Below are positions 6,924 through 53,063 of a stretch of DNA of 64,000 nucleotides, piece after piece. Position 1 is the stretch's first letter. Each line of letters opens with the position of its first letter. The stretch covers positions 1-64,000 of the forward strand of contig WHVD01000212.1 in assembly GCA_015178975.1 (NCBI GenBank), written 5' to 3'. Position numbers and translations under genes: made by a program. This DNA comes from Hysterangium stoloniferum (lineage: Eukaryota; Basidiomycota; Agaricomycetes; Hysterangiales; Hysterangiaceae). Under the pieces are notes generated by a model. It did no database searches. It was not told the DNA's origin and saw only the letters and a list, made by a program, of their open reading frames with translations.

Positions 6924-7566
6924 TGTAAAGGGTATGCATATATGCATACCTGGACTAAGGAATAATAACTGGATTATAGTACTTTATTATTTACCTTTTA
7001 TTTTCTTTCTTTATATTCTTTCTATATTTCGAGCACACCTTGATTTTGTAGTTTGAAGCTTTGTGTATATGTATGGGTGCTCTCGGCGCCAAAAGAGACA
7101 GACAACTTTTACCCAGCAGACACCACCTCGTAACGACTCAGACGTCGAATAGCGAGAGGTGTCAAGGGTAGTATCTCAGCTACCATAAGGGTAGCATTCT
7201 CTAGTCTACTAATAGCCTTTTGGACTCGAACCGCTAAGGTCGAGTTCCGCTTTCAAGACTTTGCGCTCGTCGACACCGTAGTCGACTCACGCTACTATTA
7301 CTCTATCCTAGACACTCAGTCTTTAGCTGAGTATCTTACTTATTTCTAGCTACTAGTTGTACCGTAAAAGGTCAACTCATTATCTTACTGTTCTAAGCCG
7401 TCACGAGCAACTATACAGTTGCTCTTGAGGCGTGCAGTGCATTCTTACACTAGTACTAACAGTCTAGTAGTCTATAGTATTGTACTGACGGTCAATACTC
7501 TTCAATAGTAGTTGAATAAACACTATTCTTCGTATATTGAGCGGTCAGAATCCACCACTCTTCACA
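6924..7566 (+). repeat. family A LTR, 3' LTR of A1
   Basis: 643 bp, starting TGTAAAGGGTATGC and ending CTCTTCACA. It directly follows the purine tract of A1. Near its start is a perfect 20-bp palindrome, GGTATGCATATATGCATACC. The rest contains several short stem-loops shared with the other LTRs in the window. Family B pol sequence resumes immediately at 7567. Confidence 0.92.
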
Positions 7567-10500
7567 CCCAGACTCCTAGATCTTCGACTGAGAAAGCATC
7601 GATGCAGTCAACAGCAACCAAGATCACCCATCTCGTCGAGAGTCTATCAAAAATAGAAGAGGAGTGTGTCCTTAATCCTCAATCCTCCGGACTGCCCCCA
7701 GAACAGGAACTCGCAGACGATTTCGACCCGGCAGGTCCTAAAACGTCAGAGGTTGCCACCACGGAAATGTTTCGTGTGGAAGATCTGCATAAGCTGGTTA
7801 ACTTAGGACCTGACATCCCTACCGATGTCTCCTCCCACTTGGAGTCAGTATTAACTAAGAATGTCCTAGCCTTCAGAGTAGACGGGCGACTGGGACAAGT
7901 GGATGTCAAGGTCAATGTCCCATTGAAAGAGGGTGTGCAACCCATTTCAATGTCAATGTTCCCAACCTCCCCCAGCTAATAGGAAAGTCATTGATGAACA
8001 AATGGATACTTGGTTCCAACAGGGAGTAATCGAACCGTCCAAGAGTCCTTGGGGGGCGCCAGCCTTTGTTGTCTATCGCAACGGGAAACCACGAGTAGTG
8101 ATCGACTATAGAAAGTTGAACAGTCTAACAGTTCCCGCCGAATTCCCGCTGCCACGCCAGTCGGAAATCATGCAAGCGCTTTCGGGCTCCAACATCTTAT
8201 CTTCCTTTGATGCACTAGCCGGTTTTACCCAACTTGAAATGTTAGAGGAAGACAAGCCGAAGACCGCCTTCAGATCCCATCGAGGACTGTGGCAATTCAG
8301 GAGAATGCCCTTTGGACTTCGTAATGGACCTTCTATATTCCAAAGGGTTATGCAAACCGTACTTGCACCTTACTTATGGATATTCTGTCTGGTTTATATT
8401 GACGACATCGTGATCTTTCTAAGACATGGGATGATCATCTAGAACATTTAGATCAGGTTTTACAAGCCATAATTGCTGCAGGAATCACTCTCTCGCCCAA
8501 AAAGTGCTATATGGGGTATAATTTGATTCTACTACTAGGACATAAGGTGTCTAGACTCGGCTTTTCGACCCATCAAGAAAAGGTCACCGCTATAGTAGAA
8601 TTGGCTACACCTTCTAAGATAGCAGATCTTCAACGTTTTCTAGGAATGGTTCTGTACTTCTCCACGTACATACCATTTTACTCCTGGACGGTTGCTCCAC
8701 TTTTCAACCTCTTGAAGAAAGGCGTTCATTGGAATTGGGATTCTGAACACGCCCAAGCTTTTGAGGACATCAAGGTTGCGTTGAGCTCAGCTCCAGTACT
8801 TGGACACCCCACGAGCGGTATGCCTTATCGGTTATACACAGACACTTTGGACTTTGCACTAGGATGTTGTCTCCAACAAATACAGAAAATGACGCTTAAA
8901 GACCTTAAGGATACGAAAATTTATGCCCAAGCACAAGCAGCCTTAGATCAATCACGAGACATGCCCATCTTCGTTACTCGTTATAAAACCAAGGAGCTGG
9001 AATTCACCTGGATGGATTCCTGGGCCACAGATTTTGACGACACCAGTGTCACGGTCGAACATGTTATCGCCTATTGGAGCCGTATGCTCAAGAAAGCAGA
9101 ATGTAACTATTCAGCCACAGAGCGAGAAGTGTGAAGGGTATGCATATATGCATAATTGGACTAAGGAATAATAGTTGGATTATAGTATTTTATTATTTAC
9201 TTTTAATTTTCTTCATTTACATTCTTTCTATATTTCGAGCATACCCTTATTTTGTAGTTTGAAGCTTTGTGTATACGTATGGGTGCTCTCGGCACCAAAC
9301 GATAGACACTTTTTACCCAACAGACACCACCTCGTAAACGACCCAGACGTCGAATAGCGAGAGGTGTCAAGGGTAACGTCTCAACTACCTATAAAGGTAG
9401 TGTTCTCTCGCATACTCACAGACTTTGAACTCGAACCGCGAAGGTCGAGTTCCACTCTAAGGTCTTTGCACTCGTCGACATTATAGTCGACTCGCGCTAT
9501 TATCCCTTTACTTTAGATATTCGGCCTCTCGTTGATTATCTATCTTACGTCTAGCTACAAGTTGTACCGTGAAGGTCAACTCTTTCATTCTTCATCCTAG
9601 CCGTCAAGAGCAACTGTACAGTTGCTCTTGTGACACATTGTGTGTCTCCTTACTAGTACGGCCAGTCTAGTAATCTACGGTATTGTACTGAACGGTCAAT
9701 ACCTGCTAGTAGTAGTTGAATAAACACTATACTTCATATATTGAATGGTCAGAATCTATCGACTCTTCACAAGAAGTGTTAGCCGCTAAAGAAGGATTAG
9801 TCCATTTCCAGCCCTTTATCGAAGGCGAACATATCCTTCTGATCACTGACCATACGGCATTACAATGGGCCAGATCTTATGAGAATACTAATCGTCGACT
9901 GGCCGCATGGGGGGCGGTATATGCTGCATACCCCGGTCTGGAAATCTTACATAGAGCAGGACGAATACATAGCAATGTTGACCCACTGTCCAGACTTCCT
10001 CGAGTACCAGACTATGCTAGCCCTGTGAGAGACAACCTTTTACTGATCATAGTGGATTCTTATAACCGGAATAATGATGAGACGTTATGGGAGAACAAAC
10101 CAGCGGAAAAAGCTGTCTTTCTCACTCATCATGAGTTAGTCGAACCAGTCGGAACCATGGAAGAGGTCCCCCAAACGAAATGGGACTTGCACAACCTCCC
10201 CAGAAATGATGAAACTGATGAAGCGAATTTTACTCTCTCGAATCCACAATTGCTTATAGAGATCGATGAAAATTACGCTAAGGAACTTCGCGGTGGATAC
10301 CAGAAGGATCCTGCCTTCAGAAATCATTACACCACCGATCCCATTTCTCCAAACATGGTAACTACTCCTTCGCATTATTTCATCGGCAAGAATAAGCTAT
10401 TGTTCTTTCGAGATTCGGACTGGAAAAGTCGAATCTGCATTCCTAGCAGCATGACAACAACCATACTCAAGCTGATACATGATAATCCCTTCGAAGGAGC

Positions 10501-15750: not shown

Positions 15751-16832
15751 CATGGTGGACGGCTTGTTCCTTAGTCGATGTCAAAAAAAAGTGTAAGGCT
15801 GTTGGGATCAGCCTCACTTGGTCAGTAGCGGACAGGACTAGGTTTTCTCTGTTGAGTATTCACAGCTAGTGTAAGATACAAGTATCGATATCTATCCATA
15901 ATTATCCTTGATCAAGAGTTATATACCTTCGACGGGCATCTGATACCAGCGTGATGAACCCAGGGTAATTGGGGCTGTGCTGTAGGTTAGGAAACAGAGG
16001 GCGGTCCGGTTGAATTAAGAGGCGGTCTGATGGATGGAAAGGAGGGTTGTGTGAGTCCATGTGAAACTGATTGATGATGTGTGCTTGTGGTAAGACGACC
16101 AGGATTACAGGTTCAGACTTCAAGTTCGGACTGCTGCACATACATATGTACAGTGCCACATGTTAAAATGTTGGTTGTTGTTTGTAGATTTGCTTTGTTG
16201 TATGTTGTATTTTTGTTTTGCTGTGCTGTAATGCCCTAATATGGAATTGTGTCGTGACTGGCTCGGAATGTATCAATCTCGATTTCATGGCCTCTAATTT
16301 GATTTTTGAGTGAGGCGAACTCTTAGAATGATGCCACGCTTTTAAATGAACTTGAGTTATTTATAATAGGCTTTCAAAGAGATCCTCGAAACAGGTGTGC
16401 GATCTATAATTCTAAACCTTCAAATTCTCCACGTTATAATACCATTAACCATATAGTGATATTATACGGAGAACCTTCAGGTTATAAACAGTGCGACCTC
16501 TTCATGCGCTTCGGGTTCGTCAAGGTGGTACATACTCACCTTGTTAGAAATAAGGAGTTCAATCAGACATTTACAACCTTATGAAACCTTATGAAGTAGT
16601 CAGCGACCGAGAAGATTTAGGAATGTTACGGAACTTTATAGTATAGTAGTTACCATCCAGTATATGTTTGGAGCTTGTAGTTACAGGCTTAAGATAATGC
16701 TTTGATTCCTTCTCATTATTTCCCTGCGCAAGTACCGTATCTACAATACACCTAGTAATAAAGTTATAATTATTAAGGACGACTGGTAATGGCCAGTTGA
16801 AACTACTTGTACAGATTTCACTTTAGATAGCG
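15751..16832. other. gene-free flank with a diverged copy of the inverted-repeat outer end
   Basis: No convincing gene. From about 16100 to 16560 the plus strand resembles, at perhaps 60-65% by eye, the plus strand of the right-arm end at about 27240-27560. Examples are ACTTCAAGTTCGGACTG against ACTCCAAGTTTGGACTG, and TCTCGATTTCATGGCCTCTAATTTGA against a matching stretch near 27408. The flank is therefore an older, inverted relative of the left arm's own outer end. Confidence 0.5.
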
Positions 16833-16849
16833 GCAGTCACAAGTCGTCC
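16778..16849. repeat. small terminal-inverted-repeat element at the outer arm boundary
   Basis: 72 bp with ends GGACGACT and AGTCGTCC and weaker similarity extending inward. The homology between the two large arms stops inside this element (about 16833; mirror point about 27900), so it marks the left breakpoint. It may be a miniature inverted-repeat transposon; boundaries are tentative. Confidence 0.4.
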
Positions 16850-17622
16850 CTATAGTAATATATTCAAAACGACTAGTAAGTAGGAAGGTGACACCGCTTC
16901 CAACTTAAATGCTCTATACGATATGTTATTATTGGGAACTTGAGTAGATCACAGTAGACATTAGAATATATGACTTGGCTTCTATCTATGAGTGAACTAC
17001 TGAGGGTTCCAAATATCTACAGAGAAGAAAATTCTGGAAGGGATGACAGGTATTACTAAAGCTATGTTAAGTATATTCCAAGATATTCTATAATATTCTA
17101 GGGATTTCAGGTTGATTACCAACAGTTATATCGTCATGGGGTATTTTAGAACTGGGAATCTGAAGGTTTACAAGGACGGCACCTGTGACAAAGTACTAAT
17201 TATCGTACGCTTGCCCTCGAAGGCCCCTGAGACTAGCATTATATATAAATCCAGGTCATTTAGAAAGTATAGCACCATTATTTGAGTTCCCTTGACTCAA
17301 AACGAAATCAGAAGCCATGGAATCGAAATTAATACATTTCAAGTGGCAGCCAATATTAATCACAAACACTATTCTATACCAGGCGCAATGCAGTGAGACA
17401 GGTACAGTTTGCAACAAAGCAACTTCACAACCAACAAAGCGAGAATCATAACATATGATACCATCCGTACGTACGACAGTCCAAACTTGGAGTGTGTATG
17501 AGCCACTGTGTCTTCAGCCATGCCAGTTTGATGGCCTTCCAGTACTGAATACAAGACTCGGAGGACCTAGCGTTGATATAAATAATAGTTGAATATGGAG
17601 CATGCAACTGGCCCGTACGTGT

Positions 17623-18735
17623 CTAATTTACAAATGGGTGCCAAGATTTGTAAAGTTTCTCCGCTAACGGTTGGACCGTTGACCAGGAACCGTCCTTTTT
17701 AGCCCCGAAGATTTCAAGCAAAGACACGAACTTAGTCGCCTACAAAACGGAGAGATCAGCCAATCTGAAAATATAAAGTTTTGTTTCAATAACCTTCATG
17801 ACTTCTCTAAGAAATTCGGGGGTCCTTGTCTCAACGAGACTGAGCATGTCCGTGGAATTATCCAACTGATCGAGAGCCGAATAAATCATCTGAATCTGCG
17901 TTGACTTGGGATAAATACTGCCACATAATGGTAAATCAATGTCATGTCAACGTACTTCATTAGCATTTTTCCCGACTACTGTGAGTAAAACCTTCACGTA
18001 GCGCAAATAAAGGTAGACTAGTGATCATTCAAGTCGCATCCCAAGAATGTTTCCAAAAATCATACCAATATCATGGACAAGAGAATAACTTCTTCGATAT
18101 TCAAGCGCGACTCTTGTGGTTTTGGAGTACGTTTTGATGAATCTGTTTTGTTCCTTGTACGCTTCAACGATTGCGGGTCCCATAACTTGTTCGAGTGTCT
18201 TCCTCCCCACTGCTCTACTTACAGAGCTTGTCTTTACAATTGAATAGCATTTGACATGCGTAACGGAAATCTTGCAGTATATGCCGAGCAATCCACGCAG
18301 CTGCTTCAGATTGCAATTTGGAACTATCGCATCCTTCGAACTTGCAAGGTTCCCAATCGTATCGATGGTCCCTTGTTCGTACGAGCTTTGGTGGACGGGT
18401 GCGATAGTCCAAAGAAACCTGAGAGCTTGATGTATGCTACGGAGCAGTGAACTAATAGATAGGCTACATCAATCACCAATGTTGATCTCCATGACAAAGA
18501 ATACCTACTCCTTGTCGGGGCTGTTGAGATCCTCTTCAAATGCCTCAGAGAATGTTTTTCTTGACAATGTTCGAAGTGTACGGCACACGCTCGGGAGCAC
18601 TGCAAGCATAGTTCTCGAAGGGAACGGGGATTCTGGTGATTCTGGCGCGCATATGCTATGAATGTCTTCAGCAATTGTTATTTCGAGAATAAGGAAAAGG
18701 ATGTCATCGGGTTGGTTCAGTAAGATGGAAGGCAT
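17623..18735 (-). CDS. hypothetical spliced protein, left-arm copy
   Basis: Mirror image of the gene at 25997-27109 and identical to it as far as I can read. The inferred first exon begins MPSILLNQPDDILFLILE. A 45-bp intron joins it in phase to a long second exon ending in SYSLVHDI. Downstream exons end in LYKSWHPFVN and a stop. Function is not recognised. Both copies keep open, spliceable frames, so either could be expressed. See the right-arm entry for details. Confidence 0.5.
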
Positions 18736-20653
18736 TACTGGGGGGGTGGGGGGGTGGGTGATGCAACGGACAAGGGATATAGTGGAAATAGTATGAACTC
18801 TCATAGGCAACCACCCACCTTTAGTAGATCTAGCAGCAGTGCATCTGGAACTGGGTGGCGGGTTCGGGGCCGCCTAAGACCTGCCATTGGCTCGGTCTCC
18901 TTGACTTTGCCGAAACCCACAATACACTCCAGGCAATCACAAAAGGCGGTCTTGCTTCTTCTTATTGATCTAATACATTGCCAGAGATCTGATTGTATGA
19001 TATAATACGGATAATAATATTCCTTGGGATCAAGGTTGTAACCCTGTATTTCAAAGCGTCATCTGGCGTGGTGCCATCCTTTTATCTCCATTCCTCATAG
19101 TGCATCGTATTCGATATGTTGCTTAAGTGGTCTGTCTCGGAGTTCTCTGATATTTTTCAGAGTGGCTCACTCGAGTTTCTTTCCATATGCGATGCTCAGG
19201 CTTCTTTCTATATGCGGGGTCCAAATTAAAGGGGCATTGTTTTCCGCACGTAACAACTCTGTTTTTATTAAATTGGAAGCTGAAATAGCTACTTAAAGTA
19301 CGTTCAGCCACCGTTGCTTGTTGGTGAAGCGTGGAAAACTGTTATAATCAGATGGCCAGGTAAATAAAATAGAAGGGAGATACTCTGGTTAGGCTTAGTG
19401 GTTTCCAGAACTTTATTGTCGGACGCCCATAAGCTGCCACTTGAAAACTTCATACTTGTTCGGGATGAAAATGCATGCTGCTCTCGCCACCCTGTCGCAA
19501 AAATGTTTGAAAACGACATTTACTTACCTATAGGAAGTGTATTTAAACACGCTATCAGCTCTGAAATACCCCCAAGCGAGGGGAATGAACAGCCAAAATG
19601 GACGGAAAAGGGGTGATTAAGACATAATGAGGGCATGGTGCATGGGGACGGTATTTAAGCGATGCCATTAGTATAAAATAATCATCGAGACAATCGGGAA
19701 AACTCGCCACCGAATTTGGAATACTTGGTCACCTACTACACACTGAAAAAATCCACATGCCGTTAAAATTTAGACTCAATTCGGATAGATGTACTGCGAG
19801 GAATTTTGCCATGCGGAGAACGGTATCCATTAATAGTATAATCAACATCTTGCTAGGGCCGACCTGGTATACGTCGGTACACCGTGGACGCAAGCAAAAA
19901 GCGTTGGGATTACTAAGCTACTGTACAAAACTACATAGCCTAGCACGAGATATATTGGTGACCCACAAGTGTCATCACGGTGAGATTACTACTGAAAAGT
20001 CAAAATGTTAACACGACCCGCCACTAATTAATATCGCGACAGGAACGAGCTAGCAGTTGATGATCGATTCATGGCTGCATACCTCGCTGACGCGTATAAA
20101 AAGCCAAGTCTTTATAAAATTCTATCACCTAAGAGCCAAAATTCGGCATTCACGTTTTGTTCTAACTGATTCCACTGTGTGAAGATGCAAGCGCTCAACC
20201 ACTCATATATGTGAACTTGAAAGTGAGTGTGCCAAGTAGCCTGTCTGGCAGGGATATATTAAACACAACCAGAGAAGAGAGAGATTTCTTTTTTTTTGTG
20301 TCCTATTCTTGGCAATGACCATGCATACACTCCTTGTAAAGCTTGCACTCACCATCTAATTCGGCTAGTAACTACTTCCATACCAAGAATATCACTCTCT
20401 CGAAGTTTTTTGAATAATACAGAACGTACAAATTGATGCTTGTATTAGTTGGCCGACTGTCATAGGCAATTTGACGAGAGAACAGAGGGACAACGTACAG
20501 CACAGATCTCGACAGCTCACACTTGCGTCTCAATTTCCAAATAGAATATTCTCTTTTACTGTTCAAGCTATGCTTTATCTTGGAATCATTCTTTCTCAGG
20601 TTATTTTTTAGATAATTTGTCCATTGGCCGTTACATCGTTTGTCAAAAGGAGG
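18736..20653. other. intergenic DNA of the left arm
   Basis: 1.9 kb between the two gene copies in the left arm, mirrored at 24079-25996. It has short random open frames only and a G-run (GGGGGGGTGGGGGGGTGGG near 18740) next to the inferred start of the hypothetical gene. I see no RNA gene or transposon terminus. Confidence 0.5.
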
Positions 20654-21425
20654 TCAACCAAGCTCGACAATGGATGGGGCTGCAGCGAATTCAACTAAAA
20701 ATATTTTCGTTTCTGCAAGAATTACCAGTCTTCCTTTACCAGCAAAGATATGGTTTGCCGTGACTGTGTTAATGAACATCTTTCCGAGAAGCACACCGGA
20801 AGGGTCGTATACCTTTTGAGAAGAGAAAAATATCCTCAGAATAATGAAGAGGGACAATGGACGTAACTGACCTGAACACCGTCTCCGCAAGACGCATAAA
20901 CGTTGCCCTCGCTATCCACTTGGACACCATCAGGAATTCCGGTATCCATATAAGCCAGGACCCGTCGGTTCAGGAATGTTTCTGTTACGGGATCAACGTC
21001 AAATGCATAACTAGACGAGTGATAAGTAAGGTAATAATAGCAAGCAAAATCCGCCTACATCGTAGCCGGTCGTGTCGAGTCAACTGTTGTTCCAGTGGCA
21101 CCAGTGTCTGCGCTAATTATCCGCTCAAAAATGGCATGCAGGGATTACTTTTTTGAATCAAAGCACCCACATGTACGCAATCCTGCCGTCTGGTGAGAAA
21201 GCAATACCGTTACATTTATCAAATCCGTCAGCGACGACGCGTAGCTGGCTCGTTGTAGGGTCGAAACGGTAGACTTGATTAGGAAGCTATGGAGATACAA
21301 TGAGTTTCTCAACAACAAGTATTTTGACGGGAGAAAAAGAGACGAACAAGAGAACAAGAGGTGCTGGTCGGAAGTTGTTAATGAAGCCGTATCTGCGCGC
21401 ATGTTCCCATGAATGGCATCCATAC
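20654..21425 (-). pseudogene. 3' fragment of the SMP-30/lactonase-like gene, left arm
   Basis: Reverse-complement copy of the last five exons (exons 5-9) of the gene at 22379-24078, from the YGFINNFRPAPL exon to the stop. The exon reading frame is kept; one third-position change (ATT for ATC in GFIN) is silent, and an 8-bp tandem addition falls at the start of intron 5. The signal peptide and first four exons are absent because the arm ends at about 21425. It is a truncated by-product of the inverted duplication and has no obvious promoter. Confidence 0.85.
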
Positions 21426-22378
21426 TATCATAATTGGATCCGTCAAAGGGATCCATCCCACAGTCACCAAAGAATCTCTAGTGAACATATATGTATAATT
21501 TTCTTTGTCTGTGTCTAAATATTGAAATCTGATCATTAGAAATTCCTACAAGGCTTTGAGATCATCTTGTCATCTGAGCGGCCATGACTCCTGAAATGAG
21601 CTACAATTGGAGAGAATATCTTGTTCTAAATTTGGATCTGAAAATTTCTGTACCGTGGCAGGACCTCATTTCTATTGATATCTCAAGATATCTACGTGCG
21701 TGTTTCGGATCAGGCCTTGATGCGAGTAGCTTGGCAGAACTTGAGCTTTTATCTTCAAGTCCAAAGCCCGGTTCAATTCGGATTTCTAGGTCTTCATATT
21801 AATCGAGCAAACCGAAATTTGGGCACGATTCAATTGAGCAAAATTTCAGGGCTACTATTCAATTTAGACAACAGCACGACCGCGTAACGGCATGCGGTCA
21901 CAATTCGCCGATTTCGTTCGTGGCATTGCTAAACACAGTCTGGGCGAGTAGCAAAAATAGAACGGCAGGGCTAATAGCTCGATATTGTTCCTATAACCTC
22001 AAGTTGAACTTGGAGGGGATGCAAACGATCTCTAGTCTCCCAAATCACGATGTTGAAACTCGAAATTCTGTTCCGAGGCATGGTTCCATTGGAATACATG
22101 TCGTTTTCGATTTTTTCCCCCTAGACATAAGACGTAAGTAAAATCACACCGTGGGGCAGTTTAATTTAATTTGTACGCGATTAGTCTATACATGTGAGTT
22201 TAGATTGGAAGCGAAGAGGTCATATGACATTAATCGTGCAGGGAAGCCAAGGTGGTCTCCCAAAGCATCGACTATTGAAGCCTTCAGGATAATCATTTAA
22301 AGCCCCCCGAATATTACCAAATAACGTCCCCGACTTCCCTTGACCATCTTCTTCTGCTCACATTAACTACTCACGAAT
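21426..22378. other. spacer and promoter side of the lactonase-like gene
   Basis: Unique DNA between the arms. No convincing gene; two overlapping short frames near 21584-21887 look random. The last ~100 bp, rich in C and T (CCCCGACTTCCCTTGACCATC near 22330), is a typical fungal pyrimidine-rich leader just before the ATG at 22379. Confidence 0.5.
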
Positions 22379-24078
22379 ATGACCCATCGAGCCCACAATT
22401 CCTTCTTCTCCGGTCTTTTCATTGCATTTCTGCTAATGGTACAGACTGTCTCAGTCATTCTAGCGCAAGATGTGAAGCTACCAGCTCAGACTGTGGTGTG
22501 TGCCAGCATTCTGGGTTGACAATGCTCTCTGAATACTCAGCGTTAGTTAATTGACGTGCCGGCACTGGCCATTCTCGGTGATAATGGTATATTTAGGACG
22601 AGCACGACACCTTTCAATCCAACCGGCCACGAACCACCGTTCTTTCAAGCGTGGGACATGCGATTTTTGGATATCTTAGGTCCCAATCCATCTGTTAGAA
22701 TCATCGCAGAGAGAGATGATTTCGCTTTTGCACACGAGGTGTGATACTTTATTACTCGAAACTGAATGACAAGTCTCATATCAGCCGTACACTACCAGGC
22801 ACCTATTTGGGATCCAACAAGTGATCGTATTTTTTTCGCCAGCAATGATGGAGTAAGACCCGAGGTATTGTCAGGGGGGAGTATTTCTGATATATATTAT
22901 GACCAGGGCGCATTGGGGATGAGTGATTTGAATCACAACAATCAGGTCTCATTTATAAATTTGAAGGACGTTAAAGGGTCAGGGCCTCAGAATATCACGT
23001 TTACAAAAGTAATATCCACTTATTTGGCGCTAAAAATGCTGATATTTTCTACTTATAAGGTGCCAATATCCCCAGATATCCAAATGGTGAACGGCGGAAC
23101 ACCATACAAGGACAAATTGCTGTTCATCACATCCGGACGAGGTAATTCACCGCCCGGCCTATCCCTTGTAAATCCAAATCCACCATTCAACTCGACGACT
23201 ATCCTGGACAATTTACATGGCAGACAGTTCAACTCACTTAATGATGCCAAGGTTCATCCCAAAAGCGGTGCCATCTTTTTCACGGATGTCGTGTGAGTAA
23301 CAGGAATGTAAATAATGTGGATGCCGTTCATGGGAACATGCGCGCAGATACGGCTTCATCAACAACTTCCGACCAGCACCTCTTGTTCGTCTCTTTTTCT
23401 CCCGTCAAAATACTTGTTGTTGAGAAACTCATTGTATCTCCATAGCTTCCTAATCAAGTCTACCGTTTCGACCCTACAACGAGCCAGCTACGCGTCGTCG
23501 CTGACGGATTTGATAAATGTAACGGTATTGCTTTCTCACCAGACGGCAGGATTGCGTACATGTGGGTGCTTTGATTCAAAAAAGTAATCCCTGCATGCCA
23601 TTTTTGAGCGGATAATTAGCGCAGACACTGGTGCCACTGGAACAACAGTTGACTCGACACGACCGGCTACGATGTAGGCGGATTTTGCTTGCTATTATTA
23701 CCTTACTTATCACTCGTCTAGTTATGCATTTGACGTTGATCCCGTAACAGAAACATTCCTGAACCGACGGGTCCTGGCTTATATGGATACCGGAATTCCT
23801 GATGGTGTCCAAGTGGATAGCGAGGGCAACGTTTATGCGTCTTGCGGAGACGGTGTTCAGGTCAGTTACGTCCATTGTCCCTCTTCATTATTCTGAGGAT
23901 ATTTTTCTCTTCTCAAAAGGTATACGACCCTTCCGGTGTGCTTCTCGGAAAGATGTTCATTAACACAGTCACGGCAAACCATATCTTTGCTGGTAAAGGA
24001 AGACTGGTAATTCTTGCAGAAACGAAAATATTTTTAGTTGAATTCGCTGCAGCCCCATCCATTGTCGAGCTTGGTTGA
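22379..24078 (+). CDS. secreted SMP-30/gluconolactonase-like protein
   Basis: Nine exons inferred from GT-AG sites and frame: 22379-22495, 22547-22738, 22799-23008, 23060-23292, 23348-23384, 23446-23561, 23620-23673, 23722-23860, 23920-24078. They sum to 1257 nt, an exact 418 codons plus stop. The start MTHRAHNSFFSGLFIAFLLM followed by ...SVILAQD is a signal peptide. Family signatures follow in order: HEAPIWDP, FFASNDG, LLFITSGRG, FNSLNDAKVHPKSGAIFFTD, LPNQVYRFDP, VADGFDKCNGIAFSPDGRIAY, IPDGVQVDSEGNVYASCGDG. These match the six-bladed propeller of the SMP-30/lactonohydrolase family, which hydrolyses sugar or other lactones outside the cell. The acidic metal-ligand positions (E in HEAP, N in LND, N in CNGIAF, D in PDG) appear present. 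Substrate unknown. Exons 5-9 lie in the right arm. Confidence 0.88.
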
Positions 24079-25996
24079 CCTCCTTTTGACAAACGATGTA
24101 ACGGCCAATGGACAAATTATCTAAAAAATAACCTGAGAAAGAATGATTCCAAGATAAAGCATAGCTTGAACAGTAAAAGAGAATATTCTATTTGGAAATT
24201 GAGACGCAAGTGTGAGCTGTCGAGATCTGTGCTGTACGTTGTCCCTCTGTTCTCTCGTCAAATTGCCTATGACAGTCGGCCAACTAATACAAGCATCAAT
24301 TTGTACGTTCTGTATTATTCAAAAAACTTCGAGAGAGTGATATTCTTGGTATGGAAGTAGTTACTAGCCGAATTAGATGGTGAGTGCAAGCTTTACAAGG
24401 AGTGTATGCATGGTCATTGCCAAGAATAGGACACAAAAAAAAAGAAATCTCTCTCTTCTCTGGTTGTGTTTAATATATCCCTGCCAGACAGGCTACTTGG
24501 CACACTCACTTTCAAGTTCACATATATGAGTGGTTGAGCGCTTGCATCTTCACACAGTGGAATCAGTTAGAACAAAACGTGAATGCCGAATTTTGGCTCT
24601 TAGGTGATAGAATTTTATAAAGACTTGGCTTTTTATACGCGTCAGCGAGGTATGCAGCCATGAATCGATCATCAACTGCTAGCTCGTTCCTGTCGCGATA
24701 TTAATTAGTGGCGGGTCGTGTTAACATTTTGACTTTTCAGTAGTAATCTCACCGTGATGACACTTGTGGGTCACCAATATATCTCGTGCTAGGCTATGTA
24801 GTTTTGTACAGTAGCTTAGTAATCCCAACGCTTTTTGCTTGCGTCCACGGTGTACCGACGTATACCAGGTCGGCCCTAGCAAGATGTTGATTATACTATT
24901 AATGGATACCGTTCTCCGCATGGCAAAATTCCTCGCAGTACATCTATCCGAATTGAGTCTAAATTTTAACGGCATGTGGATTTTTTCAGTGTGTAGTAGG
25001 TGACCAAGTATTCCAAATTCGGTGGCGAGTTTTCCCGATTGTCTCGATGATTATTTTATACTAATGGCATCGCTTAAATACCGTCCCCATGCACCATGCC
25101 CTCATTATGTCTTAATCACCCCTTTTCCGTCCATTTTGGCTGTTCATTCCCCTCGCTTGGGGGTATTTCAGAGCTGATAGCGTGTTTAAATACACTTCCT
25201 ATAGGTAAGTAAATGTCGTTTTCAAACATTTTTGCGACAGGGTGGCGAGAGCAGCATGCATTTTCATCCCGAACAAGTATGAAGTTTTCAAGTGGCAGCT
25301 TATGGGCGTCCGACAATAAAGTTCTGGAAACCACTAAGCCTAACCAGAGTATCTCCCTTCTATTTTATTTACCTGGCCATCTGATTATAACAGTTTTCCA
25401 CGCTTCACCAACAAGCAACGGTGGCTGAACGTACTTTAAGTAGCTATTTCAGCTTCCAATTTAATAAAAACAGAGTTGTTACGTGCGGAAAACAATGCCC
25501 CTTTAATTTGGACCCCGCATATAGAAAGAAGCCTGAGCATCGCATATGGAAAGAAACTCGAGTGAGCCACTCTGAAAAATATCAGAGAACTCCGAGACAG
25601 ACCACTTAAGCAACATATCGAATACGATGCACTATGAGGAATGGAGATAAAAGGATGGCACCACGCCAGATGACGCTTTGAAATACAGGGTTACAACCTT
25701 GATCCCAAGGAATATTATTATCCGTATTATATCATACAATCAGATCTCTGGCAATGTATTAGATCAATAAGAAGAAGCAAGACCGCCTTTTGTGATTGCC
25801 TGGAGTGTATTGTGGGTTTCGGCAAAGTCAAGGAGACCGAGCCAATGGCAGGTCTTAGGCGGCCCCGAACCCGCCACCCAGTTCCAGATGCACTGCTGCT
25901 AGATCTACTAAAGGTGGGTGGTTGCCTATGAGAGTTCATACTATTTCCACTATATCCCTTGTCCGTTGCATCACCCACCCCCCCACCCCCCCAGTA
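24079..25996. other. intergenic DNA of the right arm
   Basis: Mirror of 18736-20653. No supported gene. Short frames, for example near 25213-25428, have no recognisable family. A C-rich run (CCCACCCCCCCACCCCCCCAG) ends three bases before the inferred ATG at 25997. Confidence 0.5.
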
Positions 25997-27109
25997 ATGC
26001 CTTCCATCTTACTGAACCAACCCGATGACATCCTTTTCCTTATTCTCGAAATAACAATTGCTGAAGACATTCATAGCATATGCGCGCCAGAATCACCAGA
26101 ATCCCCGTTCCCTTCGAGAACTATGCTTGCAGTGCTCCCGAGCGTGTGCCGTACACTTCGAACATTGTCAAGAAAAACATTCTCTGAGGCATTTGAAGAG
26201 GATCTCAACAGCCCCGACAAGGAGTAGGTATTCTTTGTCATGGAGATCAACATTGGTGATTGATGTAGCCTATCTATTAGTTCACTGCTCCGTAGCATAC
26301 ATCAAGCTCTCAGGTTTCTTTGGACTATCGCACCCGTCCACCAAAGCTCGTACGAACAAGGGACCATCGATACGATTGGGAACCTTGCAAGTTCGAAGGA
26401 TGCGATAGTTCCAAATTGCAATCTGAAGCAGCTGCGTGGATTGCTCGGCATATACTGCAAGATTTCCGTTACGCATGTCAAATGCTATTCAATTGTAAAG
26501 ACAAGCTCTGTAAGTAGAGCAGTGGGGAGGAAGACACTCGAACAAGTTATGGGACCCGCAATCGTTGAAGCGTACAAGGAACAAAACAGATTCATCAAAA
26601 CGTACTCCAAAACCACAAGAGTCGCGCTTGAATATCGAAGAAGTTATTCTCTTGTCCATGATATTGGTATGATTTTTGGAAACATTCTTGGGATGCGACT
26701 TGAATGATCACTAGTCTACCTTTATTTGCGCTACGTGAAGGTTTTACTCACAGTAGTCGGGAAAAATGCTAATGAAGTACGTTGACATGACATTGATTTA
26801 CCATTATGTGGCAGTATTTATCCCAAGTCAACGCAGATTCAGATGATTTATTCGGCTCTCGATCAGTTGGATAATTCCACGGACATGCTCAGTCTCGTTG
26901 AGACAAGGACCCCCGAATTTCTTAGAGAAGTCATGAAGGTTATTGAAACAAAACTTTATATTTTCAGATTGGCTGATCTCTCCGTTTTGTAGGCGACTAA
27001 GTTCGTGTCTTTGCTTGAAATCTTCGGGGCTAAAAAGGACGGTTCCTGGTCAACGGTCCAACCGTTAGCGGAGAAACTTTACAAATCTTGGCACCCATTT
27101 GTAAATTAG
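25997..27109 (+). CDS. hypothetical spliced protein, right-arm copy
   Basis: Exon 1 (25997-26223) starts MPSILLNQPDDILFLILE, a leucine-rich start that faintly resembles an F-box but is not convincing. A 45-bp intron (26224-26268) joins it in phase to exon 2, which reads through LLRSIHQALRFLWTIAP, LKQLRGLLGIYCKISV and TLEQVMGPAIVEAYKEQNRF to SYSLVHDI near 26664. A later exon (about 26815-26937) reads IYPKSTQIQMIYSALDQLDN and on to EFLREVMK. A 54-bp intron follows, and the last exon reads ATKFVSLLEIFGAK to SWHPFVN and a stop at 27107-27109. The join between exon 2 and the IYPKS exon is unresolved. The protein seems largely helical and cytosolic, with no signal peptide. I do not recognise the family. 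Confidence 0.5.
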
Positions 27110-28553
27110 ACACGTACGGGCCAGTTGCATGCTCCATATTCAACTATTATTTATATCAACGCTAGGTCCTCCGAGTCTTGTATTCAGTACTGGAAGGCCA
27201 TCAAACTGGCATGGCTGAAGACACAGTGGCTCATACACACTCCAAGTTTGGACTGTCGTACGTACGGATGGTATCATATGTTATGATTCTCGCTTTGTTG
27301 GTTGTGAAGTTGCTTTGTTGCAAACTGTACCTGTCTCACTGCATTGCGCCTGGTATAGAATAGTGTTTGTGATTAATATTGGCTGCCACTTGAAATGTAT
27401 TAATTTCGATTCCATGGCTTCTGATTTCGTTTTGAGTCAAGGGAACTCAAATAATGGTGCTATACTTTCTAAATGACCTGGATTTATATATAATGCTAGT
27501 CTCAGGGGCCTTCGAGGGCAAGCGTACGATAATTAGTACTTTGTCACAGGTGCCGTCCTTGTAAACCTTCAGATTCCCAGTTCTAAAATACCCCATGACG
27601 ATATAACTGTTGGTAATCAACCTGAAATCCCTAGAATATTATAGAATATCTTGGAATATACTTAACATAGCTTTAGTAATACCTGTCATCCCTTCCAGAA
27701 TTTTCTTCTCTGTAGATATTTGGAACCCTCAGTAGTTCACTCATAGATAGAAGCCAAGTCATATATTCTAATGTCTACTGTGATCTACTCAAGTTCCCAA
27801 TAATAACATATCGTATAGAGCATTTAAGTTGGAAGCAGTGTCACCTTCCTACTTACTAGTGGTTTTGAATATATTACTATTAGGGACGACTTGTGACTGC
27901 CACTTAACGCTATTCATACAGATTTCGACGTAATATAGGCACATAGTATATTAGACTTGGTTACGAGTCTAGATAGCCCCCCGAACAAGCAATCCCACAC
28001 AGCCGCTGAGCTAAAATTCCTTTCCATCACTGGCATTGCCACCGCACTGCCCCAGGTTTTCCTATCATTCATTTACAGAGAAACAAGTTTAGACCTACCT
28101 TTTTTCTAGAGGGATACCTTGCTTATGAGGGAAATCCGGAACATACAGAGACAGATGCAGAGTAAAATAGTGAGATTGATATGACGAGTATGGGTAGGTA
28201 CAAGTTGTATGCTGAGAGTCCTGCCTTGACTTCTTACAATATTTCTCCCAGCTTCCCATATTTAAAATTTCACCTGCATGGAACTACATCAGGAAGAGTC
28301 TAAATGCCAATTGGGATTGTTTCATTACAAGATGCATTTATGCCTGTAAGTGCAGTTGGACCCACATGTACCACATTATGGTCACTGATGTCAATTGGAC
28401 TGATAAAAACTGAGATGTGGAGGACATCTAATGCTTTTACTCAATCAATCCTTGACAAGCTCACATCGTCAGCCGTAAGGTGAGTGTCGATCCCGCCGCC
28501 CGCCCTGACTCGCAAATCATTCTCCAGTTTAAGACCAACTGAAGCAGACCTTT
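27110..28553. other. arm end and flank without a gene
   Basis: 27110-27900 is the outer non-coding end of the right arm (mirror 16833-17622). 27901-28553 is unique flank. A short minus-strand frame at 28441-28629 reads LKLENDLRVRAGGG but has no clear start, family or partner exon, so I leave it uncalled. Confidence 0.4.
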
Positions 28554-28669
28554 TATTAGGTATAACGAGTATTGCAGAAGTAAGCGTGCGTATGAAAAAG
28601 GTGAGACAAAATGTCTCGAAAAGATGCAATGTGTTGTATTGTTCAATCTCCTCTTGAATGTACTATTAT
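28554..28669 (+). repeat. 5' LTR fragment of the copia element (left piece)
   Basis: About 116 bp matching 46625-46740 at roughly 95% by eye, including GAAAAAGGTGAGACAAAATG. The gypsy LTR begins at 28670 directly after it. Confidence 0.85.
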
Positions 28670-29310
28670 TGTGAAGGGTATGCATATATGCATAATTGGA
28701 CAGTGGATTATTATGCACATTATAGTACTATATTATCTAGTTTCTATTTCTTTTCTTTAATTCCCTATATCCTTCGAGCATACCCGTATTTCTTAGTTCG
28801 AAGTCTTGTGTATACCTATGGGCGCTCTCGGCGCCAAACGATAGACACTTCTTACCCAGCAGACACCACCTCGTAAACGACTCAGATGTCGAATAGCGAG
28901 AGGTGTCAAGGGTAACGTCTCAACTACCTATAAAGGTAGTGTTCTCTCACATACTAACAGACTTTGGACTTGAACCGCGAAGGTCGAGTTCCACTCTAAG
29001 GTCCTTGCACTCGTCAACATTATAGTCGACTCGCGCTACTATCTCTTTACTTTAGATACTCAGCTTCTCGTTGATTATCTATCTTACTTCTAGCTACGAG
29101 TTGTACCGTGAAGGTCAACTCTTCATCCTTTCATTCTAGCCGTCAAGAGCAACTGTACAGTTGCTCTTGTGATGCGTTGTGTGTCTCCCTGCTAGTACTG
29201 CCAGTCTAGTAATCTACGGTATTGTACTGAACGGTCAATACCTGCCAATAGTAGTTGAATAAACGCTATACTTCGTATATTGAACGGTAAGAATCTATTG
29301 ACTCTTCACA
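28670..29310 (+). repeat. family A LTR, 5' LTR of A3
   Basis: 641 bp, TGTGAAGGGTATGC to GACTCTTCACA. It carries the series of stem-loops typical of the family, for example AGTTG-TACCGTGAAGGT-CAACT and GTATTG-TACTGAACGGT-CAATAC. Confidence 0.93.
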
Positions 29311-36515: not shown

Positions 36516-37160
36516 TGTGAAGAGTCGATAGATTCTGACCGTTCGATATATGAAGAATAGTGTCTATTCAACTACTATTAGCAGATATTGACCGTACAGT
36601 ACAATACTGTAGATTACTAGACAAGCTGTGCTAGTAAGAAGACATGCTATGCATCACAAGAGCAACTGTACAGTTGCTCTTGACGGCTAGAATGAAAGAA
36701 TGAAAGAGTTGACCTTCACGGTACAACTCGTAGCTAGATGTAAAATAGATAATCAATGCGAAGCTGAATATCTAGAGTAAAGAAATAATAGCCCGAGTCG
36801 ACTATAATGTCGACTAGCGCAAAGACCTTAGATTGGAACTCGACCTTCGCGGTTCGAGTCCAAAGTACGTTAGTATGCAAGAGAATACTACCTTTAAAGG
36901 TAGTTGAAACGTTACCCTTGACACCTCTCGCTATTCGACATCTGGGTCGTTTACGAGGTGGTGTCTGCTGGGTAAAAGTTGTCTGTCTCTTTTGGCGCCG
37001 AGAGCGCCCATACGTATACACAAAGCTTCGAACTACAAAATCAAGGTGTGCTCGAAATATAGAAAGAATATAAAGAAAGAAAATAAAAGGTAAAGAATAA
37101 AGTACTATAATCCAGCTATTATTCCTTAGTCCAGGTATGCATATATGCATACCCTTTACA
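36516..37160 (-). repeat. solo family A LTR, reversed, inside gypsy A3 pol
   Basis: 645 bp, reading TGTAAAGGGTATGC on the minus strand, flanked by the target duplication AGGAC (36511-36515 and 37161-37165). It has the perfect 20-bp palindrome also seen in the A1 LTR and starts TGTAAAGGG like it, so it came from the A1 subtype rather than the A3 subtype. Confidence 0.95.
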
Positions 37161-41351: not shown

Positions 41352-42341
41352 TGTGAAGGGTATGCATATATGCATAATTGGACAGTGGATTAATATGCAC
41401 ATTATAGTACTATATTATCTAGTTTCTATTTCTTTTCTTCAATTTCCTATATCCTTCGAGCATACCCGTATTTCTTAGTTCGAAGTCTTGTGTATACCTA
41501 TGGGCGCTCTCGGCGCCAAAAGACAGACATCTTTTACCCAGCAGACACCACCTCGTAAACGACCCAGACGTCGAATAGCGAGAGGTGTCAAGGTGTGAAG
41601 AGTCGATAGATTCTGACCGTTCAATATACGAAGTATAGTGTTTTATTTAACTACTATTAGCAGGTATTGACCGTTCAGTACAATACCATAGATTGCTAGA
41701 CTGACCGTACTAGCAAGGAGACACGCTACACGTCACAAGAGCAACTATACAGTTGCTCTTGATGGCTAGAATGAGAGAATGAAAGAGTTGACCTTTACAG
41801 TACCACTCGTAGCTAGACGTAAAATAGATAATCAACAAGAGGCTGGATATCTAAAGTAAAGAGATAGTAGCGTGAGTCGACTATGGTGTCGAGGAGCGCA
41901 AAGACCTTAGAGTGAAACTCGACCTTCACGGTTCGAGTTCAAGTCTGTTAGTATGCAAGAAAACGCTACCTTTATAGGTAACTGAGACGTTACCCTTGAC
42001 ACCTCTCGCTATTCGACGTCTGGGTCGTTTACGAGGTGGTGTCTGCTGGGTAAAAGATGTCTGTCATTTGGCTCCGAGAGCACCCATAAGTATACACAAG
42101 ACTTCGAACTAAGAAATACAGGTATACTCAAAGAATATAGGGAATTAAAGAAAAGAAATAAAAACTAGATAATATAATACTATAATGTGCATATTAATCC
42201 ACTGTCCAATTATGCATATATGCATACCCTTCACACAAGGGTAACGTCTCAGTTACCTATAAAGGTAGCGTTTTCTCGCATACTAACAGACTTTGAACTC
42301 GAACCGCGAAGGTCGAGTTTCACTCTAAGGTCTTTGCGCTC
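41352..42341 (+). repeat. 3' LTR of gypsy A3, interrupted by a solo LTR
   Basis: Starts TGTGAAGGGTATGC after CTGGGGGGCAC. Family A LTR sequence runs to 41593 and resumes at 42241 after the reversed solo LTR, ending at about 42341 next to a family B LTR fragment. Confidence 0.88.
41594..42235 (-). repeat. solo family A LTR, reversed, inside the A3 3' LTR
   Basis: 642 bp, TGTGAAGAGTCG to CCCTTCACA on the plus strand, flanked by the target duplication CAAGG (41589-41593 and 42236-42240). An LTR of the same family lies within an LTR, in opposite orientation. Confidence 0.95.
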
Positions 42342-42778: not shown

Positions 42779-43625
42779 TTGAAGTGTGAGTATGAAAACC
42801 ATCTGGAGTCTTTGAATCAATGTAAGGTTGTAATTGGAGAACTGGTGGATCCTATCCACACAGATGCGAAGGTTCCAACAATGGAGGAACTTGAGATTGA
42901 AGAGGCCTGGGAACTTCGAAAGAAGAGGGCCTACAGCGAGATAATGCTCCACGTTGAAGATGAGCCCAGGGTGGCTATAATGGTGGATAGTAATCCAGTC
43001 CATGCATGGGAAACTTTGAAGACGACTTACAGAACGCGATTGGCCAATAGTCGTGCGACACTACTTTCCAAACTCATTCGTATGCATTACAACGGGACAG
43101 GAATTATCGAATATAAATCCCAAATGGACTCCATCAGACTTAAATTGTTGGAGGCTGGTCATGCCATCATGAATGCTGACTACCTCAGCCTATTCGTGAG
43201 TATGCTACCCGAGGATTTCGATATAATGTCAATGACAATTGATTATGACATTGATACTGTCGAAGAAGTAGTCAATAAACTGCGTCAAGTTGAGATTCAA
43301 AAAGAAATACATCCAGGCTATGGTGAAGGTTCCACATTTCATGCCCAGAGGGGTACTGAAGGTTCCACGTTTTGCCCCCAAAAGGGAATCAGTATGCAGC
43401 GAAGAGTGTATCATAATAGGGGTCGTGGTCGTGCCACCATTCCATGAGGAACACAGATCAGGAGGAGTACTCCACAATCTGGTTGTTTCGAATGCGGGGA
43501 TTTGTCGCATTGGGCAAGCGATTGTCCTAAGAGAAAGCAGCAATATGCTCAGTGATCTGAAAATTGGAAGAACCAAAATAGAAGTAACGACTCATCTGGA
43601 AATACGCCATCCCCTCAGTCGCAAG
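42779..43625 (+). pseudogene. gag: Gag region of the copia element
   Basis: UBN2-type Gag: ELEIEEAWELRKKRAYSEIM, AWETLKTTYRTR, MDSIRLKLLEAGH and LFVSMLPEDFD in the usual order, followed by a zinc-knuckle-like CFECGDLSHWASDC near 43477-43518. Broken. Confidence 0.8.
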
Positions 43626-43632
43626 TAGGGGA

Positions 43633-46460
43633 GTGTTTACCGCCGTCGAATCCACATTTTTCTTGAGCAAGGAGAGTGTGTCACATAAATATTTCCTGGA
43701 TTCTGCAGCATCAGGACATTATGTGCTGAGTATGTATGACTTACACAATTTCATGGCATATAAAAATCCGAAGAAAATCCAAATGGTGAATGGGACTTAT
43801 ATTCATGCCAGAGGTATTGGAACATTGCATTTCAAGGTTACGAAACATGGACCGGAGTTTATAGGTGAAATTCCCAACGTCGAATGGACTCCTGAAGTTA
43901 AGGTGTGACTCCTTAATCCCACACAGTTTTTCAAAGATGGATATTGCGTTATGTTGAGCAAAACAGGTTCTACAATTGTCAATTCATCAGGCCGTACACT
44001 CATTGAGGTGAATGAGAGGGGTAATGTATACCCTTTCCAGCTGGATACAATCTCCATGTCACTACCAGTATGCGAATATATGAATTTATCAGAAGATGAA
44101 TTACAAAATAGGTTGGAAGATGTACCTATGATATTTTCTGCAAATTTGACATGCAATATTATGTGATGGCATCAGCATTTGGGGCATTTGAGCATGAATG
44201 CTATTAGGAATCTTGCATGACATTTTGTGACTGGAATGGAAATTGAAGAAATTGAAGGTTTTGAAGCTGACTGCATTGCATGTATTGAAGGTAAACAGCC
44301 ATATATGCCGCAGCAAAATGGTGTTGCAGAAAGAGGTATACACACCATTACTGAAGGGGCAAGAACAATGTTATATGCGACAAAAATAGTGGAAGGTGCA
44401 CGAAACTTACTTTATGCATCAAAACTCCCTAAATTCTTGTGGTCTATCGCAGTCAAAACAATGGCATATTTGAGGAATCGTAGTCCATTGCATGCAAACA
44501 ATGGACATACACCTATTGAAAGGATAACTGGAGAAAAGCCGGATTTAGCACATTTGCGGATATTCAGAAGTCCAGTTAGTGTGGCAGTTCCTAAGCAAAG
44601 ACATCAGAAGCGGGACTCACGTTCAAAGATGGGTTATATGGTTGGGTATGAACCATATTCATCTGGATATTTAGTGTGGTTCCCTGGAGCGAGAAGGATC
44701 GAAAAGGTATGAGATGCAATATTCCATGAAGATGCAATGACTTTGCCATCACCGGTGCCTTATGGAGACGAAGGTCAATTTAGGAATATAAATAGCGTAC
44801 CTCCAATGCAACCCGAGAAAGAGCCTCAGCCTAGCCTCACGATCCGTATCCCGCCTTGTCCTTGACCTATCAAAGAAAAAGAGGAGACTACGATGAGAGA
44901 AGAGTCTCAATTAGTGTCAAACGTACCTGACTATCCTCGTGGAATAACAGATCTGGTAAAGTACGGGAAGGAATTTGAAGTTCATTGTCAGTTGAAGAAA
45001 AAGAATTAGAAGATTCTAACATACTGGTTGTTTTCTCGACATTGGGCAATCCGACGATAGAGGAGGCATTGAATATGCCGGGAGATGAAGGATTAGCTTG
45101 GGAAGAAGCTAGACAGATGGAGTGGAAGAATATGGTAGAACATAACGTATTCCGCACACCTGAAGAACCACCACCAGGAACATGTGTTTTAAAAACCGGA
45201 ACAGTGTGTTGTGGATCGTACAAGAACAGCGAACTAATAAAGAGGAAAGTACAAATTGTTGTAAAAGGATTTAGTCAAATTCTTGGATTACATTTTAATG
45301 AAACATACGCACCAGTCATGAAGTGGGAAACATTCCGAATTTTACTGGCACTGGGAGCAATAACAAATTCAGCTATACGTCAATTTGATGTTAAATCGGC
45401 ATACTTACATGGCATGATGAAAGAAAAGGTTTGGGTTCAACAACTGGAGGGGTTTGAAGAACCCAGAAAGGAGAATTTAGCATTGCCGTTATTGAAGGCT
45501 CTATATGGAACAAAACAGGGAGGCAATGAGTGGAGAAAAACACTGTATGATTTTATGGTTAAAGAATTCACCTGGTTCTGTTCCAATTTTGATAGCGCTA
45601 CATTCTTCAAAATATGGGATGACGGAAGTTGGGCCATAGTTGCATTTTGGGTGGATGACGCAACTGCCATAGGTGATGAAAAACGGCTCCTAGATCTCGA
45701 AAAGGCATTCTGCAAATGATTTGGAATTTCGAGCGAAGGCAAGGCCCATTGGATATTGGGAATGAGTATCCGTCGAGATGCTGAATTGAAATCAGTATTC
45801 ATATCACAGAAGGAATATATCAAAAATATAGCAAAGAAGTTCAATGTACAGAATTCCAAGCCAATTCGAACTCCCATATCACTAGGAATCGATTTCACCT
45901 CTATTATTCGTCCAGATACTGAAGAAGAACAAAATGAAGTTGAAAAATTGCCCTATCGCAAACTTATCGGAAGTTTGATGTTCACAGCTACAGTATCGCA
46001 TCCCGATATTGCATACTCTGTTAGCAAACTATCTCAATATTCATCAAATCCCGCGAGAATGCATTGGGACTTAGCTAAGTGCATCCTGCAATACTTATAC
46101 ACGACTCATGATTTCAAGCTTCGATTGGGAGGACAAGCTCTTTGTCTACATGGATATTCAGATGCCAATTTCACAGGAGATCAGGAGGATAGACGTTCAA
46201 CAGGTGGATATGCGATTTTTTTAGGTTCAGGAGCAGTATCTTGGTCTTCGAGGAAGCAGTCAACAGTTGCCCTTTCATCCACAGAAGTGGAGTATATTGT
46301 GCTTTCGGAAGTGGCTCGCGAAATTATGTGGATGCATCATTTCCTCGAAGAACTTAATATAATATATGAAGAACCGATGGCAATTTTCGAAGACAATCAA
46401 GGTACTATCGCATTCGCTCAAAACCAATGCGCTTTGAGAAGGATGAAACACATTGAGTGA
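43633..46460 (+). pseudogene. pol: pol region of the copia element: PR, IN, RT, RNase H
   Basis: Protease motif DSAASGHYV lies near 43699. An integrase segment MPQQNGVAERGIHT is near 44310. RT has FNETYAPVMKWETFRILL and FDVKSAYLHG near 45295-45410 and a metal-binding WVDDATAIGD near 45650. RNase H shows SDANFTGDQEDRRSTGGY near 46160 and ALSSTEVEY near 46270. The order IN-RT-RH is that of Ty1/copia. Broken, many breaks. Confidence 0.88.
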
Positions 46461-46624
46461 AATACCGCTTCATTCGTCATTTGATTGAAAACAGCACTAT
46501 CCAACTCATATATTGATTGACTAAACAAATGATTGTGGATATATTGATGAAACCACTCTCCTCACCCATTCACTACCATCACACAGGACGTTTAGGACTT
46601 ACTTCTTCAAAACTCGAGGAGGAG

Positions 46625-47150
46625 TATTAGGTATAATGAGTATTGCAGAAGTAAGTGCATGTATGAAAAAGGTGAGACAAAATGTCTCGAAAAAATGCAA
46701 TGTGTCGTATTGTTCAATCTCCTCTTGAATGTACTATTATATACGTGTAGTATAGCTAGGGAATCTCTCAGCGAACATTTAACCACTGAGAGTAAGTGAT
46801 ATGTTTATTGCCTTATCACTAAACAAAACTTATCTATGTATTTTGTAAGTCTGGTGCCCCAGTCTTACACTTTCACTCATTGTTCCCGTTATGTGTTCAC
46901 TCTTTGTTATGCATTCACTCTTTGTTATGTGTTCCCTTTGTTCTTTGTTTCCTTTGTTCCCTTCTTTTGTTCTATTGCCACATTACCATGACTTATATAG
47001 CCCAGGATGTTTCCCTTCTCTCCAGACACCGTAGCTATACTTCCTGTATCCAGTCCTGTTCCAGACTATACACCGTGGTCCTGTCAACTCGTGTGACCGC
47101 CAGTGATCCCATTGACAACGGGATTCCATATTTAGTACTTAAACGTCTTT
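46625..47150 (+). repeat. 3' LTR of the copia element with a solo LTR inside
   Basis: Starts TATTAGGTATAATGAG after a purine tract (CGAGGAGGAG) and ends ...AAACGTCTTT near 47150. It is split by the LTR at 46852-47128. A partial LTR-like echo (GCGAACGTTTAACTGCTGAG, TACTTAAACGTCTTTACC) follows to about 47210. Confidence 0.78.
46852..47128 (+). repeat. solo LTR of a separate family inside the copia LTR
   Basis: 277 bp, TGTAAGTCTGGTGCC to GACAACGGGATTCCA, flanked by TATTT (46847-46851 and 47129-47133). TG...CA ends and a perfect 5-bp duplication identify it as a solo LTR. It has no relative elsewhere in the window. It is rich in TTTGTT and TTCCCT runs. Confidence 0.88.
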
Positions 47151-51300: not shown

Positions 51301-51596
51301 CCAAAAAAATTTAGAATCCTTAGTAGAGCCTCATTTTATATAAACTTCAACAATCATCCATTTAATTGTTATAAAAGTTAAAATTGGTATGGGATCTTTT
51401 GAGGATCCAAAAGTTCTAAACCCTGCAATGACATGTTAGATTCATAACCGAGTTAAAGGATCCAAAGTTCGTGGGATTCTAAACCCGCCAATCACATGTT
51501 GGATCCTTAACCGAGTTCAAGTCGGTTAAGGATCCGACGAGTGATTGGCAGAGTTTATATAAAATAAGCCTCTACTGAGGATCCTAAAAAAATTTG
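51301..51596. repeat. MITE with ~50-bp terminal inverted repeats
   Basis: About 296 bp. The left end CCAAAAAAATTTAGAATCC... and the inverted right end CCAAATTTTTTTAGGATCC... pair over roughly 50 bp, including TAGTAGAG and CATTTTATATAAACT. It carries no coding capacity. An internal perfect hairpin, GGATCCTTAACCGA / TCGGTTAAGGATCC, lies near 51500-51535. The target duplication is not clear. Confidence 0.75.
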
Positions 51597-52861: not shown

Positions 52862-52931
52862 GGTCACGCTCGGATTTGAACCGAGAACTTATTCAATAGG
52901 TAGATTAAGGTTGCCATTGCACTACGTGACC
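52862..52931 (-). pseudogene. degenerate tRNA-like sequence
   Basis: On the minus strand GGTCACG and CGTGACC form a full 7-bp acceptor stem, followed inward by a good T arm (CTCGGTTCAAATCCGAG) and a B-box. The 5' half has a D-loop-like TAGTGCAATGGC, but neither a D stem nor a standard anticodon stem-loop can be drawn. I read it as a tRNA pseudogene, perhaps of an arginine tRNA, or the head of a tRNA-derived SINE. Confidence 0.5.
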
Positions 52932-52971
52932 CCCACATCAGACCTCCAGGCCGGTAGTTATTAGAGAGTAT

Positions 52972-53063
52972 TTGCAACTAATATATATTAAGAATGTGTT
53001 CCTGATATGAATATTAGGAACCAATTCAGTTTACTAATATTTCATTAGTTGCAAATACTCTAT
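52972..53063. repeat. short foldback element
   Basis: 92 bp with ends AGAGTATTTGCAACTAATA and its near-perfect inverse ATTAGTTGCAAATACTCT. A second inner pair, GGTTCCTAATATT / AATATTAGGAACC-like, surrounds the centre. Almost the whole unit can fold into one stem. A candidate MITE. Confidence 0.65.

Follow-up and report, generated by a model that had tools for sequence, protein, structure and literature searches.

The central question raised by this locus is why two oppositely oriented copies of one segment of DNA are identical throughout their interior and differ only at their extreme ends. The locus belongs to Hysterangium stoloniferum, a truffle-like forest fungus, whose assembly comprises 111 Mb in 554 contigs; the window that we analysed covers bases 1 to 64,000 of contig C127, which is 118,969 bp long. 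An earlier note had described mirror-image arms of ~4.59 kb around a spacer of ~1.9 kb, and both a mirror-complement test and a gapped alignment bear this out. Position x and position 44732-x are complementary at every base from 16896 to 21352, and an inverted match of 4,457 bp without a single flaw is not a product of chance. In the gapped alignment, 16829-21428 pairs with 23312-27904 at 99.65% identity over 4,601 columns. The intervening 21429-23311 forms a spacer, and the outer flanks of the two arms differ. We are therefore dealing with arms of ~4.6 kb that are at least 99% identical and are accompanied by a unique spacer and unique flanks, as in a palindrome. The features referred to below are the following, with C115 designating the contig that carries a related gene cluster:

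16054..16830, + strand: relic, an old and diverged copy of 27195-27938 in direct orientation, adjoining the left arm on its outer side
16829..21428, - strand: left arm, the derived inverted copy; identical core 16896-21352
17623..18735, - strand: gene X, left copy, identical to the right one (mirror test and protein match)
20654..21392, - strand: headless lactonase copy, exons 6-10 (tblastn; ends mirrored from the right arm)
21429..23311, no strand: spacer, 1,883 bp; lactonase upstream region at 21430-22378, colinear with C115 to about C115:25835
22379..24078, + strand: lactonase (SGL domain), 10 exons, 400 aa, starting in the spacer and ending in the right arm
22907..23384, + strand: stretch unusually like the C115 lactonase (longest unbroken identity 23153-23322, 170 bp)
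23312..23380, no strand: right-arm inner edge zone, with five of the nine arm differences
23312..27904, + strand: right arm, the ancestral arrangement; identical core 23380-27836
25997..27109, + strand: gene X, right copy, 5 exons, 297 aa, orphan
27837..27904, no strand: right-arm outer edge zone, with four of the nine arm differences

The genes of the locus are unequally distributed between the arms. The lactonase, previously credited with nine exons, has ten, and the spliced 400-residue product equals a deposited H. stoloniferum protein (P0001) at 100% identity over the full length. The ends given for it earlier, 22379 and 24078, were correct, as was the crossing from spacer into right arm: the spacer holds exons 1-5 and the arm the remaining five, 6-10, with introns of 48-61 bp between exons. 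Its match to the SMP-30/gluconolactonase family (PF08450) scores 88.9 bits against a cut-off of 26.3, and we regard it as a plain member of this family, a protein without unusual features. It has 1488 homologues at E <= 0.001 among 7430 candidates (120 of the 1488 are listed); within its own genome, matches fall only on C127 and C115 (nine candidates scored). A headless 3´ copy had been postulated for the left arm, and tblastn indeed finds exons 6-10, and only those, on the minus strand.

Each arm also contains a complete copy of the gene which the earlier note could not recognise and which we call gene X. Its product is identical (100%) to the deposited hypothetical protein BU17DRAFT_101131. 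Because this is the sole match at E <= 0.01 among 577 candidates, gene X counts as an orphan at that sensitivity. No Pfam family exceeded its cut-off in a search with this protein, and a structure predicted from the single sequence (mean pLDDT 42.8) was too poor for a structure search. A search of the own genome places further matches to gene X at two sites on C115 and one on C540.

The question of which arm came first can be approached through C115, where lactonase and gene X occur in the same order and orientation as in the spacer and right arm. Upstream of the lactonase the colinearity extends to base 21430, adjoining the left arm (675 of 842 aligned bases equal; score 352, compared with a maximum of 90 in 100 shuffles). 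This colinearity of spacer and right arm with C115 makes the right arm the ancestral one and the left arm an inserted inverted copy. At the outer junction C115 gives no polarity, because its match stops at about 27549, inside the outer end of the right arm. We also considered an old head-to-head pair whose left head has decayed, and rejected it: the spacer follows the C115 upstream region as far as 21430 and holds no mirrored head.

C115 may be the other nuclear haplotype of the same locus. Against this, C115:25837-28500 compared with the left flank scores 86 in one orientation (shuffle maximum 131) and 48 in the other (maximum 89), and the part of the window from 43 to 61 kb has no listed match of more than 60 columns in C115:1-50000. 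Moreover, the ends of C127 and C115 overlap in the way that those of neighbours would. C127:1-1905 equals C115:1-1901 in reverse at 99.6%, the next best match reaching 98% (40 matches scored of 841 candidates), and both segments are at contig ends in dovetail orientation. The two clusters may accordingly be neighbours in direct orientation, with lactonase starts about 45 kb apart; the overlapping sequence is a repeat, so this is offered as a lead only. Upstream of the full C115 gene, at about 24916-24981, there is a short piece resembling the lactonase start (59% of 22 residues), perhaps a remnant of another lactonase copy.

The left edge of the palindrome gives some indication of how the inverted copy arose. 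Directly outside the left arm, 16054-16828 resembles the right end of the locus (504 of 659 aligned bases equal, score 241, shuffle maximum 112), and 16046-16792 resembles C115 more strongly (527 of 662 equal, score 332, shuffle maximum 99). Measured on homologous positions, the inverted left arm begins about 34 bp from where this relic stops. Since the left arm adjoins an old direct relic of the cluster, the duplication appears to have arisen inside a decayed tandem array. The left arm is joined between the decayed direct relic and the lactonase upstream region. We suggest that a local inverted duplication took place within an old cluster in which lactonase and gene X units were arranged in tandem, and that the inverted copy would have been made through a U-turn in replication or break repair. 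Inspection of the inner junction by eye revealed no clean microhomology. An origin by template switch or break-fusion, as the earlier note had it, is consistent with these observations.

How the arms behaved after duplication is best seen in their differences. There are nine difference events, at right-arm positions 23315, 23317, 23326, 23360, 23380 (an 8-bp gap), 27837, 27861, 27880 and 27902. All nine lie at most 69 bp from an arm end in right-arm positions, eight of them within 70 alignment columns, and the 4,457-bp core between them contains none, so that the differences are confined to the edges. If events were uniformly placed, such an arrangement would have a chance of about 0.03^9, or 0.03^6 without the three events within 6 bp of the ends, figures to be read with the 69-bp limit having been picked after the data were seen. 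The control consisted of 16 further repeat pairs in the contig, each spanning 2,000 columns or more; several of them share sequence and are not independent. They carry 110-704 events each, which are spread out: no stretch free of events is longer than 268 bp, and within 70 columns of the ends the events number 0.4 to 1.8 times what uniform placement would give.

The direction of several changes can be determined as well. With C115 as outgroup, two changes fall on the left arm, namely an 8-bp tandem insertion and the base at 23360. A third, at 23326, falls on the right arm, since C115 shares the state of the left one. For 27880 the outgroup is the relic, which has the state of the right arm, hence the left arm has suffered a 1-bp deletion. 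Because both arms carry derived changes at their ends, these ends had time to change. The edge-only pattern suggests arm-to-arm gene conversion as the best fit: following the duplication, each arm would have served as a template for the other, which kept or made the core identical and left about 70 bp at each end to drift. The outcome is that gene X is present twice, complete and identical in both arms, together with a headless lactonase fragment, usable as a template and not as a gene. On the sequence of this one genome, we consider it probable that the locus is a local inverted duplication in an old tandem cluster, with arms homogenised by gene conversion.

Two other explanations of the identical core are possible, namely a single recent copying event and consensus smoothing. 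A wholly identical core is equally expected from one very recent inverted duplication without later conversion, and this counts against conversion. The end differences would then come from error-prone synthesis at the junctions. Replicative rearrangements are known to leave clustered changes near their breakpoints, and the 8-bp tandem insertion and the change at 23360 do sit on the derived left arm. Errors made in the copy leave 23326 unexplained, however, where it is the right arm that has changed, and the changes are similarly dense at both arm ends. We hold this course of events to be somewhat unlikely. That the assembly itself produced the pattern, either as a fold-back artefact or by smoothing different arms to one consensus except near unique flanks, is suggested by the confinement of all surviving differences to within about 70 bp of unique sequence, in a contig which is short and rich in repeats. 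A fold-back read would nevertheless show neither a 1,883-bp unique spacer nor differing outer flanks nor fixed differences at both ends. Here the spacer is colinear with C115, differences occur at the ends only, and we rejected the fold-back because of the spacer and the two different flanks. As for smoothing, the assembly kept apart all 16 other pairs of repeats that are 2 kb or longer, 15 of them differing by 4-11% or about 31%, so arms differing by several percent should have stayed separate too; with a divergence well below 1%, smoothing is possible. In the genome-release study, sequencing was by Illumina, PacBio or both, depending on species (PMC7550596). An assembly effect as a whole appears to us decidedly unlikely.

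Further readings assign the arms a function or a mobile nature. The earlier note had envisaged cruciforms, hairpin RNA and silencing of the locus by itself, for which we find no support. A silencing locus would yield a 4.5-kb hairpin RNA by readthrough, and from it siRNA against its own genes. The arms are perfect enough for this, and the genome has 19 Piwi-domain matches (17 over the cut-off), so silencing would be possible in principle. On the other hand, the gene X copies are directed outward, no known transcript spans both arms, and the lactonase is under purifying selection (see below). The arms exhibit no depletion of CpG or RIP-type (TpA) depletion relative to their neighbours, as would mark a silenced duplication: CpG o/e is 0.88 and TA/AT 0.83 in the arms, compared with 0.84 and 0.77 in 43000-60000. 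We judge such a function highly improbable. Two DNA-methylase matches occur in the genome (38.1 and 27.4 bits). Two Piwi-domain genes on C101 (343538-344706 and 355380-356542), with closely parallel matches about 12 kb apart, are likely a tandem duplicate. Long inverted ends in a repeat-rich contig might also recall a transposon with very long terminal inverted repeats, yet the absence of transposon ends, asserted earlier, holds: a genome search with the outer left end recovers no match apart from itself and the other arm. The outer right end has 43 matches, all of which, the two arms excepted, lie beyond the arm at about 28549-28600. Neither outer end recurs elsewhere in the genome at the search sensitivity used, and C115 presents the right arm as an ordinary local segment. 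With end matches confined to the arms themselves, we rejected a transposon ending in the arms, and give it practically no chance.

The surroundings do contain repeats. Copies of a ~645-bp repeat, 77-97% alike, are at 6924-7566, 9129-9771, 28670-29310, 36516-37160 and 41594-42236, and they have the look of LTRs belonging to nested mobile elements. Within 41352-42235, inverted 242-bp pieces of this repeat, 95% complementary, are 400 bp apart. Open reading frames in 42779-46460 resemble, by eye and from their translations, a copia-type retroelement; 49045-50046 is an intronless 333-aa frame, and 60967-61148 is a tandem array with an 11-bp unit. A dispersed ~195-bp repeat is found inside both arms (16929-17124 and 27608-27803) and, among the matches listed, in 35 more places at 86-89% identity.

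Another process we propose is exchange with the C115 cluster. Comparison of 22254-24092 with C115 gives a longest identical run of 170 bp, above the maximum of 103 in 2000 permutations, and from this we conclude that ectopic conversion occurs in the cluster. Intron identity to C115 is 98% and 92% for the two inside 22907-23384, compared with 74-85% for the seven outside. In 25571-27130 the longest run (108 bp) is within the permutation range (maximum 140) and is not significant. Gene X is 98% identical to C115 in exon 1 and intron 1, 84-92% in introns 2-4 and 78-80% in the flanks; it is this raised identity that may speak for exchange there. The C115-like stretch ends at ~23384 and the core starts at 23380, which led us to consider that the left arm overwrote the right; we rejected this idea as post hoc, and the dN/dS of 0.11 in lactonase exons 7-10 speaks against a long-lived donor role. 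For the whole lactonase, dN/dS against C115 is 0.20, with 0.45 in exons 1-3 and 0.17 in exons 4-6. In exons 7-10 its dS reaches 0.59, as against 0.26 and 0.14 on the spacer side. Taking these ratios as a guide, the lactonase is under purifying selection. For gene X, dN/dS is 0.55.

A farther-reaching thought is that the palindrome acts as a conversion device, the left arm being a spare template that would shield the orphan pair and the lactonase tail from decay in a repeat-rich region, within a wider network including C115 and with no known link to mating type. We find this quite unlikely.

Gene-bearing palindromes of sex chromosomes with arm-to-arm conversion were reportedly described by Rozen et al. 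in 2003. Our locus resembles these in having inverted arms more than 99% identical, a unique spacer and genes in the arms. It differs in that its 4.6-kb arms are far smaller, it comes from a fungus, it has no known link to sex or mating type, and conversion is deduced from one genome. Such palindromes are treated for mammalian and willow sex chromosomes in two papers (PMC8981503, PMC7023750). Outside sex chromosomes, palindromes of collinear gene blocks have been described, and discussed together with gene conversion, in a springtail (Folsomia candida) and a rotifer (Adineta vaga; PMC5490193). These are likewise inverted duplications of gene blocks; their copies, however, are far more diverged (Ks of about 0.2 in one palindrome), and they belong to parthenogenetic animals. 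At the P/R mating-type locus of the basidiomycete Cryptococcus, divergent pheromone gene copies were proposed as templates for conversion repair, with the authors' own proviso "if confirmed" (PMC12510652). Inverted gene copies are common to both loci, whereas the genes in Cryptococcus are mating-type genes. A limited search of open-licence literature yielded no fungal precedent and no account of this H. stoloniferum locus.

In conclusion, the locus is best read as a small palindrome whose arms have been homogenised by conversion, matching known palindromes in kind and in this sense ordinary. If it were merely a recent duplication, it would be ordinary altogether. If our reading is borne out, it would provide a compact and polarised fungal case, with an ancestral arm, an outgroup cluster and drifted ends, in which arm-to-arm conversion may be measured.
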